This document shows, piece after piece, positions 14,987 through 19,285 of a stretch of 22,466 bases of DNA. The stretch comes from a virus: IMG/VR virus record IMGVR_UViG_3300007735_000490, positions 1 to 22,466 of that record. The stretch is one strand, 5' to 3'. Every line of letters starts with the position of its first letter. Position 1 is the first letter of the stretch. The notes under the pieces are model-generated. The model ran no database searches. It saw nothing but the letters and a program-made list of their open reading frames with translations, and had not been told where the DNA came from. The position numbers were made by a program, and so were the translations under genes.

Positions 14987-15213
14987 GTGAAGGATTGCCC
15001 ACATTCTGGTATGAAGAACCAGCCAATAAAAAATTACCAAATGAAACTACTGATGAGTGGGTAGTAAGAGTGTTTGGGGCTTTTCCAGATACCGAGTTCG
15101 ACCAGCGGAATGACTTTAGAAGTTTGAATTTGCCAGTCAGAGGAAGCAGAGAAGATCGTGAGTCGCTGGGTGACTACGACTACAACCAACAACCAATAAG
15201 GAGAATGAAATAA
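14983..15213 (+). CDS. Hypothetical protein (76 aa)
   Basis: ATGA overlaps the previous stop, and the stop TAA 15211-15213 overlaps the next ATG (TAATG). The product is acidic, with aromatic residues near the N-terminus (LPTFWYEE) and a disordered, Arg/Asp-rich C-terminal half (LPVRGSREDRESLGDYDYN). No motif is recognised. It may be a binding partner or regulator for the annealing protein encoded next. Confidence 0.45.
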   Translation: MSEGLPTFWYEEPANKKLPNETTDEWVVRVFGAFPDTEFDQRNDFRSLNLPVRGSREDRESLGDYDYNQQPIRRMK

Positions 15214-16046
15214 TGAGTGATAACCAATTAGTAATTCAGAACGGCAACGGAGTCTCAACCCACATTCGCCAAGCGACCGATGTGGCTGGGGCTTGTCGAG
15301 CCATAGTCAAAGAAACTTGCCAACGCATCGGCCAAAAGGATTATGTCCGTGTCGAAGGCTGGCAAGCAATCGCAGTCGCTCATGGATGCGTTGCATCGGC
15401 AAGAGATGTTGAGCGTCTCGAAGATGGCTATCGTTGCATCGGTGAAGTGAAGCGAATGGACAACGGCCAAGTAATCTCAAGTGCCGAGGGGTTCTTGGGT
15501 GATGACGAAAAGATGTGGTTTGAGCGGCCAACCTATGCGAAGAGGGCTATGGTTCAGACCAGAGCAATTAGCAGGGCTTGTCGTTCAGCATTCGCACATA
15601 TCGTTGTGCTAATCGATTCTAAATTGAGTACGACCCCGGCAGAGGAGATTCCACACGGCGGGTTCGAGGACATCAACCTTAACAAATACGAGGAAGCACC
15701 GAAGCCAGTAAAGCTAGATAAGGTTAAGTCTGACTCAATCAGTAAGGCAGACCTAGCAGACATCACGGCCAAGCTGAACGGAGTTGCGGTCAAGACCAAT
15801 GGTGGAGAGCCGAGGGATATGGAGTTGAAGTTCGGCAAGCACAAAGGCTCAACGCTACGGCAGATCGCCGCCTTTGGAAATAAAGGATTGGATTACCTTG
15901 AGTGGTTGTCCAAGCAAGACCTCAAACCGGGAGCAGATGGCAAGCCCTACAAGAACGACATCATTCGCAACGAGATCATAGCAGAGATTCTTGCGGAAGC
16001 AGATGCCATAGGGAAAGGAAATCCCAATGACGAAATCCCATTCTGA
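15213..16046 (+). CDS. ssDNA-annealing-type protein with DUF3820-like domain and SSB-type tail
   Basis: AAGGAG (15198-15203) precedes ATG 15213. The 277 residues comprise three parts. Residues about 20-140 contain QKDYVRVEGWQAIAVAHGC, ERPTYAKRAMVQTRAISRAC and AHIVVLID, a pattern I recall from phage recombination proteins (RAD52/Erf/RecT-like annealing proteins). Residues about 205-235 contain LKFGKHKGSTLRQIA and YLEWLSKQ, the DUF3820/exonuclease-X-type KFGKHKG domain. The extreme C-terminus is NDEIPF, almost the SSB tip DDDIPF that recruits DNA-repair enzymes. It would coat and anneal single-stranded DNA and recruit host enzymes. The annealing call is by pattern, not by search. Confidence 0.6.
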   Translation: MSDNQLVIQNGNGVSTHIRQATDVAGACRAIVKETCQRIGQKDYVRVEGWQAIAVAHGCVASARDVERLEDGYRCIGEVKRMDNGQVISSAEGFLGDDEKMWFERPTYAKRAMVQTRAISRACRSAFAHIVVLIDSKLSTTPAEEIPHGGFEDINLNKYEEAPKPVKLDKVKSDSISKADLADITAKLNGVAVKTNGGEPRDMELKFGKHKGSTLRQIAAFGNKGLDYLEWLSKQDLKPGADGKPYKNDIIRNEIIAEILAEADAIGKGNPNDEIPF

Positions 16047-16569: not shown

Positions 16570-16775
16570 GCGTTAAAAGATTAAAACTGGTGGACGAGTT
16601 CCACGCAATCGTATCAAAGAGGCTGAAGGAATTGTTCAAGGACTTTGATCACGCCAAGCGTGAGAATTACAAAGACATTATCAGTCACCTCGACTACTCA
16701 CATCGTATCACTAAAGAGCTATTAGATAGGGCAAAGAAATACCAGAAGCGTGATATGGAGGACAAAAAGAAATGA
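16566..16775 (+). CDS. Small basic helical protein (69 aa)
   Basis: ATGA overlap with the membrane-protein gene and again with the replication-initiator gene (ATGA at 16772). The product is Lys/Arg/Glu-rich and helical (VSKRLKELFKDFDHAKRENY, then RITKELLDRAKKYQKRDME). Position directly ahead of the initiator suggests a role in DNA replication, but no family or motif is recognised. Confidence 0.45.
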   Translation: MSVKRLKLVDEFHAIVSKRLKELFKDFDHAKRENYKDIISHLDYSHRITKELLDRAKKYQKRDMEDKKK

Positions 16776-17536
16776 GGAGGGATAGCTTCTGGTTTCCCTT
16801 TGAACCTAACCGATGGCTTTCAAACGAAAAGCTGGCCTTGGTGAGTCTTGCCTCTAAAGGGCTATGGATTCACTTGGTATGCCTTATGTATAAGGCCAAC
16901 GCCGGCGGTAAGCTAACCATCAACGGAAACGCCCCAACCCCAGAACAGATTAGCAGAATGGTTGGGCAAGATGCCAAGCCTTTACTGCAAGAGCTTGAGG
17001 TTGCAGGGGTTTATGAGCTAAAGGATGGGGCAATCTATCACGGAGGAGTAGCCTCTGGATTGGCAAAGATGGAGGAAAGATCGGCTGGATATGCACGAAG
17101 GATGACCCATAGATGTACCATAGATGCACCATCTATGAACCATCTATGCACCAAAGATGAACCATCTATTGTATATAATAATAGTAATAGTAATAGTAAC
17201 AATAATAGTAAGACCAATAACAAGAAAGAGAGAGAGGGCTTACGCCCCACGCTCGCTGAATGGATTGCCTTTGCTAAAGAGATTGGGTGGAGGCAGACGG
17301 ATGCAGAGTCGGCTTTTGATTACTACCAGAGCAACGGATGGAGGGTCGGAGGCAAAGCACCAGTTAAAGATTGGCAAGCGTGTGCCAGAAATTGTCAGCG
17401 TAGGAGCAACCAACAACCAAAAGGAAACAACCAACCAATGAAGAAACCAATCAAATCGGGGTGCGAATCCCCTCCAACCTATAAATTAGCTGGCTTTAGC
17501 ACTCACGGAGAGTGGGTAGAAGCGGGGTGTCCGTGA
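16772..17536 (+). CDS. Replication initiator-like protein carrying a candidate origin
   Basis: The 254 residues have two domains joined by a disordered linker. The N-terminal part (about 1-90) has the winged-helix block WLSNEKLALVSLASKGLWIHL, then LTINGNAPTPEQISRMVG and LLQELEVAGVYEL, typical of phage replication-initiator N-termini that bind origin DNA. Residues 134-150 form an Asn/Ser-rich linker. The C-terminal part (about 155-254) is helical with WIAFAKEIGW and AFDYYQSNGWRVGG, the type of domain that recruits a helicase loader. Six iterons (17105-17171) lie inside the gene between the two domains, as in lambda O. No helicase or polymerase gene is seen, so it probably recruits host machinery. 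Confidence 0.65.
   Translation: MRRDSFWFPFEPNRWLSNEKLALVSLASKGLWIHLVCLMYKANAGGKLTINGNAPTPEQISRMVGQDAKPLLQELEVAGVYELKDGAIYHGGVASGLAKMEERSAGYARRMTHRCTIDAPSMNHLCTKDEPSIVYNNSNSNSNNNSKTNNKKEREGLRPTLAEWIAFAKEIGWRQTDAESAFDYYQSNGWRVGGKAPVKDWQACARNCQRRSNQQPKGNNQPMKKPIKSGCESPPTYKLAGFSTHGEWVEAGCP
17105..17171 (+). repeat. Six 11-bp tandem iterons (candidate replication origin)
   Basis: Units start at 17105 (12 bp, one extra C), 17117, 17128, 17139, 17150 and 17161. They read ACCCATAGATGT, ACCATAGATGC, ACCATCTATGA, ACCATCTATGC, ACCAAAGATGA, ACCATCTATTG. Consensus ACCAT(A/C)(G/T)ATG. The central 8-mer is CATAGATG in units 1-2 and its exact reverse complement CATCTATG in units 3-4, so the sites face each other. 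Units 5 and 6 are one mismatch from the core. An 11-bp period is about one helical turn and is not a multiple of three, so it is not explained by a repeated peptide. Confidence 0.75.
17172..17222 (+). other. A/T-rich tract beside the iterons (candidate unwinding element)
   Basis: Directly after the last iteron comes a stretch of repeated TAATAG/AATAG units, nearly free of G and C except within AGT and ACC codons. It encodes the Asn/Ser linker of the initiator. A/T-rich DNA beside iterons is what origin unwinding elements look like (compare the A+T-rich segment next to the lambda O sites). Function is inferred from the position. Confidence 0.5.
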
Positions 17537-17937
17537 TTGCCCACCCACAAGAGCTAGTTCTAGCGGCAACAATCCACCGGGTGAAGATGTGCGAGGACAA
17601 ATTGCGTGAATTTGAGCAAATGGTGACCACACTCACTTCTACAATGGCACAAAATCGAGCAGAATTGGCCTCACAAGGGCTTGAGAAGTTCGTTTTAGGG
17701 GTAACTACCCCCCTCGACATCCCAAAAGAGCTTGTTCCGACCTATGGAAAGGCTGGGGCAAGGCGAAATCGTGAGTATTCGACTGTTAAGAAGCGATGGA
17801 CGCTCTGGAAGCACCAACTAGAAAGCGGGATGTCGATGAGCGAGCTTGCGAAGGCTTGGGGAGTTCATAGAACAACAATTATGTTCGCCAAGAGCCGTAA
17901 CTTCATTGTTAGGAAAGCGAAAGGAGGCTCACGATGA
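17533..17937 (+). CDS. HTH-containing protein (134 aa)
   Basis: The frame has several GTG codons (17512, 17527, 17533). GTG 17533 is chosen because it overlaps the initiator stop as GTGA. The first half is helical (RVKMCEDKLREFEQMVTTL, a coiled-coil-like segment). The C-terminal third has a helix-turn-helix (MSELAKAWGVHRTTIMFAKS) preceded by a basic stretch (RRNREYSTVKKRWTLW). It may be a transcriptional regulator or a replication partner of the initiator. No named family. Its stop overlaps the next start (ATGA at 17934). Confidence 0.5.
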   Translation: MIAHPQELVLAATIHRVKMCEDKLREFEQMVTTLTSTMAQNRAELASQGLEKFVLGVTTPLDIPKELVPTYGKAGARRNREYSTVKKRWTLWKHQLESGMSMSELAKAWGVHRTTIMFAKSRNFIVRKAKGGSR

Positions 17938-18200
17938 TTGCGATGGTTGAAACAGAGCAGTTTGAGTTGCCTTTTATGAGGACAACACACCCAGTAAAGA
18001 CGGAAGGCCACGACCAGAACGCCAGAATCCTAGCCCACTTGCAATCTGGCCGAACACTAACGGCTCTGGAAGCGTTGGAGTGGTTCAAGTGCTTCCGACT
18101 GGCAAGCCGAGTGTGTGACTTGCGGAAGGCTGGTTATGATGTGCAGAAGCGAACCATCAAGACGAACAGCGGGAAAAGTGTAGCGGAGTATTATTTGTGA
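17934..18200 (+). CDS. Helix-turn-helix protein (HTH_39-like)
   Basis: The 88 residues contain QNARILAHLQSGRTLTALEA followed by LEWFKCFRLASRVCDLRKAGYDV and KRTIKTNSGKSVAEYYL. This arrangement (short first helices, L.S...DLR..GY.I recognition helix, and a beta wing) is typical of the HTH_39-type small phage DNA-binding proteins. It probably regulates transcription or modulates DNA access near the methyltransferase genes. ATGA overlap with the HTH gene before it and GTGA overlap with the methyltransferase start after it show tight coupling. Confidence 0.6.
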   Translation: MIAMVETEQFELPFMRTTHPVKTEGHDQNARILAHLQSGRTLTALEALEWFKCFRLASRVCDLRKAGYDVQKRTIKTNSGKSVAEYYL

Positions 18201-19285
18201 AGTTCATAGAGTTATTCGCTGGCATAGGTGGTTTTAGGCTTGGCCTAGAACGGACTGGACATCAATGTGTCTGGGCTAACGAGTGGCTCGAAAAACCAAG
18301 GAGAATATATGCAAAACAATTCGGAGACAAACCAGACGGAAGAGACATCAGAACTATTCGAGCCGAGGACATACCAGAGGCAGATTTCATTTGTGGCGGA
18401 TTTCCTTGTGCCACTTTTTCGATTGCAGGGAAAAGGGCGGGTTTCTCTTTGGAGGACACAAGAGGGACTCTTGCTTTTGAAATGTTTAGATTGGCTAGGG
18501 ATAAAGGAATCCCATACATATTTTTTGAAAATGTTAAAGGACTCCTCAACCACGACAACGGAAGAACCTTTGGAATCATACTCGAAGTCTTGGATGGGAT
18601 GGGGTATGACTCTCAATGGGAACTTCTTGACAGCCAAAATTTCGGAGTCCCACAGCACCGAGAAAGGGTATTCCTTATCGCAAGTGTTAGAGGAAAACCC
18701 AGACCCAAAGTATTTCCTATCGGACAGTCAGGCGAAAAAAATGATAGAGAAAAAACCTGCGGAGCAGAGTTCCTCCAATTCATTAGAAGAGAAAACAAAT
18801 TCAGAAAATTCTCTGACGGAATATCCCCAACTCTTTTAGCTCATATGGGAACTGGCGGTAACAATGTTCCATTTGTTACTGGAAGAGACCCCAAAATGGT
18901 TAATGTATTCCCAACAATAGACGGACATTATTGGAAGGGGATTCAGAATAACCAAGGCAGGGGTGCGGTCTTTATTCATTATATGGCACACACCAAATCC
19001 AATATGACGGAAAGAAATAGAGAAAGCGATTACATATGGGGGCTAGATGCAAGCCCCCAAAATAAAATGGGCGTGTCATTAGATGGATTCAAAATAAGGA
19101 AATTGACTCCAAAGGAATGCGAGCGTCTCCAAGGCTTTCCAGACGATTTCACGAAACATATGCTTATGGACGATGGTAGTCTAAAAGAAACCCAAGACTC
19201 GGAACGCTACGAACGATGCGGGAGAACTGTTACAGTTCCAGTCATTGAAGCAATAGGAAGGAAGTTTGGATATGAATGGTATTAA
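18197..19285 (+). CDS. DNA (cytosine-5-)-methyltransferase
   Basis: GTG 18197 overlaps the previous stop. The 362 residues carry the C5-methyltransferase motifs in order: I F7-AGIGGF13, II A-N28-E29, IV G-F-P70-C71-ATFS (the catalytic Cys), VI E111-N-V, VIII Q153-HRERVF, a target-recognition region of about 100 residues, IX RKLTPKECERLQGFPDDF, and X RTVTVPVIEAIG. It transfers a methyl group from SAM to cytosine C5. Motif X reads G-R-T-V instead of the usual G-N-S/A-V. No cognate restriction enzyme is in the window, so self-protection from host restriction is more likely than a restriction-modification pair. A +1-frame ORF lies inside (18309-18839). Confidence 0.9.
   Translation: MKFIELFAGIGGFRLGLERTGHQCVWANEWLEKPRRIYAKQFGDKPDGRDIRTIRAEDIPEADFICGGFPCATFSIAGKRAGFSLEDTRGTLAFEMFRLARDKGIPYIFFENVKGLLNHDNGRTFGIILEVLDGMGYDSQWELLDSQNFGVPQHRERVFLIASVRGKPRPKVFPIGQSGEKNDREKTCGAEFLQFIRRENKFRKFSDGISPTLLAHMGTGGNNVPFVTGRDPKMVNVFPTIDGHYWKGIQNNQGRGAVFIHYMAHTKSNMTERNRESDYIWGLDASPQNKMGVSLDGFKIRKLTPKECERLQGFPDDFTKHMLMDDGSLKETQDSERYERCGRTVTVPVIEAIGRKFGYEWY
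18298..18311 (+). promoter_or_regulatory. Internal Shine-Dalgarno for the +1-frame ORF
   Basis: AAGGAG (18298-18303) is followed after five bases by ATG 18309, a strong start signal in the +1 frame of the methyltransferase gene. In the methyltransferase frame this stretch simply encodes K-P-R-R-I. It is one of the better Shine-Dalgarno/ATG pairs in the window, better than that of several accepted genes. Confidence 0.5.
18309..18839 (+). CDS. Candidate overprinted gene in the +1 frame of the methyltransferase
   Basis: A 176-codon ORF starts at ATG 18309 behind AAGGAG and lies wholly inside the cytosine methyltransferase. The product is hydrophilic at both ends (MQNNSETNQTEETSELFEP; SSSNSLEEKTNSENS). 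Its middle holds GKGRVSLWRTQEG, WGMTLNGNFLTAKISES and SLSQVLEENPDPKYFLSDSQ. From memory, phage proteins with a pattern LT..TSE...SLS.ILE...PKY.LS are widespread, and they look like the +1 reading of methyltransferase motif VIII. That makes a true overlapping gene or a widely annotated shadow both possible. Minus-strand frames here are also long, so openness alone is weak evidence. Confidence 0.35.
   Translation: MQNNSETNQTEETSELFEPRTYQRQISFVADFLVPLFRLQGKGRVSLWRTQEGLLLLKCLDWLGIKESHTYFLKMLKDSSTTTTEEPLESYSKSWMGWGMTLNGNFLTAKISESHSTEKGYSLSQVLEENPDPKYFLSDSQAKKMIEKKPAEQSSSNSLEEKTNSENSLTEYPQLF

Follow-up and report, generated by a model that had tools for sequence, protein, structure and literature searches.

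A probable replication origin of a freshwater phage within the gene for the protein that would recognise it

Results

The locus and its predicted protein

The stretch of DNA analysed here, referred to as the window, comprises all 22,466 bp of a virus record from IMG/VR. Its putative initiator gene contains a series of short phased repeats, which are listed together with the predicted domains of the protein in Table 1.

Table 1. Coordinates of the putative initiator gene, its predicted domains and the repeats within it (positions in the window)
Feature	Position	Strand	Remarks
Putative initiator gene (ORF)	16772–17536	+	254 aa; N-terminal winged-helix-like domain, disordered linker, helical C-terminal domain
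N-terminal putative DNA-binding (winged-helix) domain	16805–17107	+	codons 12–112; AF2 and structure matches
Upstream iteron CAAAGATG	17064–17071	+	in the array's 11-bp register
Upstream iteron GAAAGATC	17075–17082	+	in the array's 11-bp register
Degenerate upstream iteron GAAGGATG	17097–17104	+	one mismatch; in the array's 11-bp register
Six units, in order: ACCCATAGATG TACCATAGATG CACCATCTATG AACCATCTATG CACCAAAGATG AACCATCTATT	17105–17170		
Iteron 1 core CATAGATG	17108–17115	+	
Iteron 2 core CATAGATG	17119–17126	+	
Iteron 3 core CATCTATG	17130–17137	-	CATAGATG on the other strand
Iteron 4 core CATCTATG	17141–17148	-	CATAGATG on the other strand
Iteron 5 core CAAAGATG	17152–17159	+	
Iteron 6 core CATCTATT	17163–17170	-	AATAGATG on the other strand
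A/T-rich tract (AATAGT)n, putative unwinding element	17172–17222	+	82% A/T; codes for Asn/Ser linker
C-terminal helical domain	17246–17407	+	codons 159–212; exchanged between relatives; putative helicase/loader contact

In the AF2 model of the protein, residues 12–112 were folded, residues 110–155 had a pLDDT below 50 and residues 161–212 formed helices, and the predicted disordered stretch coincided with the array and the A/T-rich tract. The N-domain, which reached a pLDDT of 86 when modelled alone, matched predicted viral proteins annotated as DUF1376, as replication protein or as phage replisome organiser N-terminal domain, with the best structure matches (DUF1376, Phage_rep_org_N and Lin1244-Lin1753 proteins) at E-values of 4e-3 to 2e-2 and TM-scores of 0.58–0.73. 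No PDB fold match to the initiator was found at E <0.001; the weak winged-helix matches included CRP-, MarR- and PrfA-type transcription regulators. No curated family named the window protein, its Pfam and NCBIfam matches being weak, and its family fell below the curated cut-off of both PF09681 (Phage_rep_org_N) and PF07120 (DUF1376), although the fold is alike.

Upstream of the initiator region, the product of 15213–16046 has a weak ExoX-like C-terminal match (PF20600) and a strong match to phrog_19042 (unknown function), and is possibly a recombination protein. Directly downstream lies a small winged-helix gene (17934–18200; PF14090), followed by a C5 cytosine methyltransferase (18197–19285).

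A phased 11-bp array between the two domains

The six 11-bp units occupy codons 112–133 of the gene, between the N- and C-domains, and TRF detected periods of 11, 22 and 33 in them. An earlier note on this DNA, made from the letters alone, had placed six such repeats at 17105–17171; these were recovered with their end at 17170, but the array is longer than described. Two more sites in the same register, at 17064 and 17075, bring the total to at least eight, and a degenerate one with a single mismatch follows at 17097; all three lie upstream of 17105, where the gene encodes the final helix of the N-domain. These upstream iterons are mostly retained among relatives: within the one at 17075, AGA makes up 45 of 46 Arg codons at residue 103, and TCG, which is rare elsewhere in the N-domain, makes up 34 of 38 Ser codons at residue 104.

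The earlier note had further held that the translation shows no repeat and that no peptide repeat could explain the DNA repeat. The former statement failed, since three units of 11 bp make 33 bp or 11 codons, and the translation does contain an imperfect 11-residue repeat (THRCTIDAPSM and NHLCTKDEPSI, 6/11 residues identical). The latter stood. The lag-11 self-match of the array was 0.69, against 0.465 ± 0.059 in synonymous recodings of the same peptide, and none of 20,000 recodings reached the observed value, so the protein does not force the DNA repeat. Likewise, the array holds four exact copies of CAT(AG|CT)ATG, a number reached by only 2 of 20,000 recodings; across the remaining window this exact motif was absent.

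As the same note had remarked, the repeats are followed by an A/T-rich tract. The 50 bp of lowest stability in the entire 22.5-kb window begins at 17164. In a class A relative of 37.7 kb the least stable place also adjoins the array, which is there the sole phased chain of the motif. An easily melted A/T-rich tract next to the array was thus found in the window and in this class A relative, whereas the stability minimum of a class B relative lies elsewhere. The length of the (AATAGT)n tract varies between relatives. As a side observation, L063 (4001–4723) and other class B loci (L064–L081) carry a non-triplet 7-bp GAAGCTA repeat after their 11-bp units, replacing the A/T-rich tract.

Of other origin signals, a GC skew switch at 17.1 kb was not seen in the window, and its 21 DnaA box matches (19.5 expected) showed neither a cluster nor enrichment. 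A reading of the tract as a DnaA-trio element (TAA/TAG triplets) was dropped because Asn, Ser and Lys codons yield such triplets for free.

Conservation of the array as DNA

Relatives were gathered from 80 viral loci, plus more from further searches; related sequences are not independent samples. Class A relatives at 53–94% protein identity retain the 11-bp array, and in 55 distinct class A arrays successive sites were spaced by exactly 11 bp in 236 of 245 cases. The motif AWAGATS occurs in both orientations among these relatives, and both orientations change together: where the window has CATAGATG and CATCTATG, reverse-complement cores already pointed out in the earlier note, L172–L179 have CAAGATG in one sense and CATCTTG in the other. 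Moreover, the centre of CATnnAT[GC] was AG or CT in 185 of 189 cases, and the site is therefore asymmetric and read in both orientations, not a palindrome with a free centre.

The order of orientations also differs between relatives (++--+- in the window, +---+- in L002 and +++-+- in L172), so that individual units have reversed direction without moving, at the expense of the encoded residues. Unit 2, for instance, is in the plus orientation in the window and in the minus orientation in L002, which changes the residues TID to TIY while the DNA site is retained. The number of units shifts by three, with three fewer in L027 and three more in L026, L033 and L047; such a change of 33 bp keeps both frame and phase.

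Comparison across related phages had been proposed as a check, with iterons expected to be conserved as DNA while the codons around them drift. In agreement with this expectation, variability was lower in core columns than in spacer columns, whichever codon position was considered (p = 0.002 by permutation within positions), even though the encoded residue changed at 12 of 22 codons in the array and at only 18 of 110 in the N-domain. Synonymous diversity in the array, at 0.152 against 0.220, was calculated from 10 codons and does no more than hint at a reduction.

Iterons travel with the N-domain

Relatives with another N-domain have an 11-bp array of their own at the corresponding position, so that, together with the retention of the array throughout class A, the comparison did not turn up the initiator without conserved iterons, the case that the earlier note had named as telling against it. 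In class B (L063 and others), which has the window's C-domain behind another N-domain, the 11-bp units are of the type (A/G)ATGTCC, and in L136, L138 and L075 units of the GTAACG or AACGCAAATGA type recur at 11 bp with a few 12-bp steps. Comparison domain by domain showed that iteron type is inherited with the N-terminal domain. The window protein and L063 share 31% identity in the N-domain and 93% in the C-domain, and their iterons differ; L172 and L040 (74% and 95%, respectively) also differ in motif; L013 and L043, at 99% in the N-domain and 55% in the C-domain, have the same iterons. This is what an initiator and its origin should show as a pair, and neither selection on the peptide nor slippage predicts it.

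A second C-domain type (FFYYGSVGWMIGNKPMKNWKLCARTCQRR) was observed on the same N-domain and iterons in L014, L043–L045 and L049, and some loci of this group end in a different tail, RRNQNQKKGGD.

Neighbouring genes and the wider C-domain family

The window's C-domain was found in many prophage proteins, and the phage reference genomes yielded two distant matches to the window protein. Among ten neighbourhoods of C-domain relatives scanned, four had a DnaB-type helicase gene (L225, L253, L273 and Pam1, upstream in the latter) and four an IstB/DnaC-type ATPase gene (L239, L244, L252 and L302, one of them matching DnaA best). Pam1 itself has a 12-bp repeat. No DnaB_C or IstB/DnaC gene was found in seven records of the window family (33–38 kb).

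Repeats beyond what synonymous recoding yields were present in 35 of 74 dereplicated bacterial-genome genes sharing the C-domain, compared with 13 of 154 control ORFs, in a gene set that was recruited via one C-domain, is phylogenetically non-independent and is a lead, not a survey of all phages. A looser version of the test gave 40/74 against 18/250. The best period was 10–11, 20–23 or 31–34 bp in 26 of the 35 repeat-bearing genes (these periods make up 36% of the lags tested), and the repeats lay at mid-gene (median relative position 0.47, quartiles 0.45–0.55).

Two further loci are worth recording. In L300 (an Oscillospiraceae MAG), a 10-bp-phased array of about 27 units (ACCAGTGGNN / ACCAGTCGCA) fills codons 114–206, the linker of a C-domain relative. 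In the DUF1376 gene ydaU of the E. coli K-12 Rac prophage (L306, 1620–2477), weak 11-bp units resembling GATGTTCAAAC lie in the linker (lag-11 p ~0.02), which is suggestive only of an intragenic 11-bp repeat. The gene is directly upstream of ydaV, encoding a putative ATP-binding protein, and the Rac prophage has an active origin, oriJ (PMC3945230). Among the DUF1376 and PF09681 genome loci, the repeat reading is valid for those on the plus strand (L307, L308, L309, L313, L314 and L316).

Discussion

A putative origin within the initiator gene

Judged from sequence comparison, the segment is probably the replication origin of a tailed phage, located inside its own initiator gene. This reading is based on the repeats, their register and both orientations, their conservation as DNA, their co-inheritance with the N-domain, the low duplex stability beside them and the helicase and loader neighbours in relatives. 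The origin function proposed in the earlier note, and the name initiator with it, draw support from these helicase and loader genes next to C-domain relatives, as well as from the demonstrated intragenic origin of lactococcal phage Tuc2009 Rep.

We infer binding, unwinding, helicase recruitment and use of the segment as the origin. The winged-helix N-domain would bind an asymmetric site of about 8 bp (consensus NAWAGATS), with sites exactly 11 bp apart that span 17064–17170, occur in both orientations and lie on one helix face. Bound cooperatively, the protein would then wrap or bend the array DNA and melt the adjoining (AATAGT)n tract, after which the C-domain would recruit the replicative helicase, either directly or via a loader. 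Because the N-domain and the iterons are contiguous in the gene, they would be inherited as one specificity cassette, with C-domains recombining downstream.

The repeats could instead be bound by the protein for control of its own operon or to block transcription, the true origin lying elsewhere. The N-domain is a generic winged helix whose structure matches include regulators, and an intragenic DNA-binding array could serve as a roadblock. We nevertheless regard this as improbable, since a site some 330 bp into the gene is unusual for an operator and a second motif chain was not found at a promoter, while the adjoining tract is the least stable DNA of the phage, helicase or loader genes lie beside C-domain relatives and the precedent of Tuc2009 Rep is an origin. 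Autoregulation and origin function may, however, coexist.

It is very unlikely that the array is a functionless slippage repeat, in which expansion and contraction by 33 bp merely keep the frame of a disordered linker. Slippage predicts identical tandem copies, whereas here the cores are kept and the spacers vary; units flip in place, the motif changes in both orientations together and is retained at 53–60% protein identity, and different N-domains carry different 11-bp arrays. These observations stand against the disorder of the linker in the AF2 model, the variation of unit number by three and the simple-repeat nature of the neighbouring (AATAGT)n, variable in length, all of which would suit slippage. 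Selection on an 11-residue peptide (HRCTIDAPSMN / HLCTKDEPSIV), with the DNA repeat as its by-product, has the in-frame 33-bp period and the 6/11 common residues in its favour, but we give it scarcely any credence: synonymous recodings almost never reach the observed lag-11 or lag-22 match, residues change while the DNA site stays (TID to TIY in the flip of unit 2), and the other N-domain classes have unrelated peptides in the same 11-bp phase.

Possible generality of the design

The frequency of mid-gene repeats in C-domain genes (35/74 versus 13/154 in controls) supports a broader reading, towards which we lean slightly. Phased iterons in the linker codons of winged-helix initiators may be general to tailed phages and prophages, with N-domain and iterons as a mobile specificity cassette and with origins readable at mid-gene, possibly including that of Rac ydaU. 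Phased-iteron origins would then be no speciality of lambda, and for phages of unknown replication the origin could be read from mid-gene sequence wherever a gene is of the DUF1376 type or lacks annotation. For phages known only from metagenomes, this suggests a search rule, namely repeats phased at 10–11 bp halfway along a winged-helix gene that has a helicase or loader gene as its neighbour. With the present locus, a previously unannotated family of putative initiators is added whose putative origin can be read from sequence, and its relatives form a natural experiment on protein–DNA specificity, in which one C-domain is combined with different N-domain/iteron pairs and sites flip or change in step.

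Comparison with known systems

In iteron plasmids of the RepA/RepE type, winged-helix initiators bind direct repeats that are in helical phase and adjoin an A/T-rich region, and the iterons lie outside the rep gene. The window differs in having them inside the initiator gene, and no sequence similarity was found, although the plasmid Rep structures 4pta and 5kbj were among the weak matches to the N-domain.

The iterons of lambda are about 18 bp long with an internal dyad. The window instead has asymmetric 11-bp sites in both orientations, and its protein had no Pfam match to the lambda O family. The O gene of lambda and of Stx phages has its iterons at mid-gene together with an A/T-rich region, and four versus six iterons correspond to 13 extra residues (PMC7466680). 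The mid-gene iterons with their A/T-rich tract, and a number of iterons that varies in frame between relatives, are thus common to both, and the earlier comparison with lambda O, as the same layout with other repeats, was borne out.

A closer model is Tuc2009 Rep (ORF16, Rep2009): the linker part of its gene likewise contains units of 11 bp, similar to CAACCAAATGT, and a tract of simple repeats comes after them. Tuc2009 Rep and ORF13 of TP901-1 have been reported to bind direct repeats within their own genes that serve as the phage origin (PMC8965321), and the database record of Tuc2009 says that the gene contains the origin. The rep gene of TP901-1 showed repeats of 15, 21 and 22 bp and no clear 11-bp repeat. 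The N-domain of Tuc2009 Rep recurs at 38–44% identity in L239, L241, L271, L277 and L302, in each case fused to the C-domain type of the window; two of these, L239 and L241, have 11-bp units of the same kind as the Tuc2009 gene. By blastp, Tuc2009 Rep was connected to proteins that have this C-domain but not to the window protein itself, to which neither its N-domain nor its C-domain (PF06926, Rep_Org_C) has detectable sequence similarity; among the proteins scanned, PF06926 was found in Tuc2009 alone. Its units also differ from those of the window, being of another sequence and in one orientation only. The kind of initiator is already known from lambda O and Tuc2009 Rep, and the window protein is a new family within that kind.
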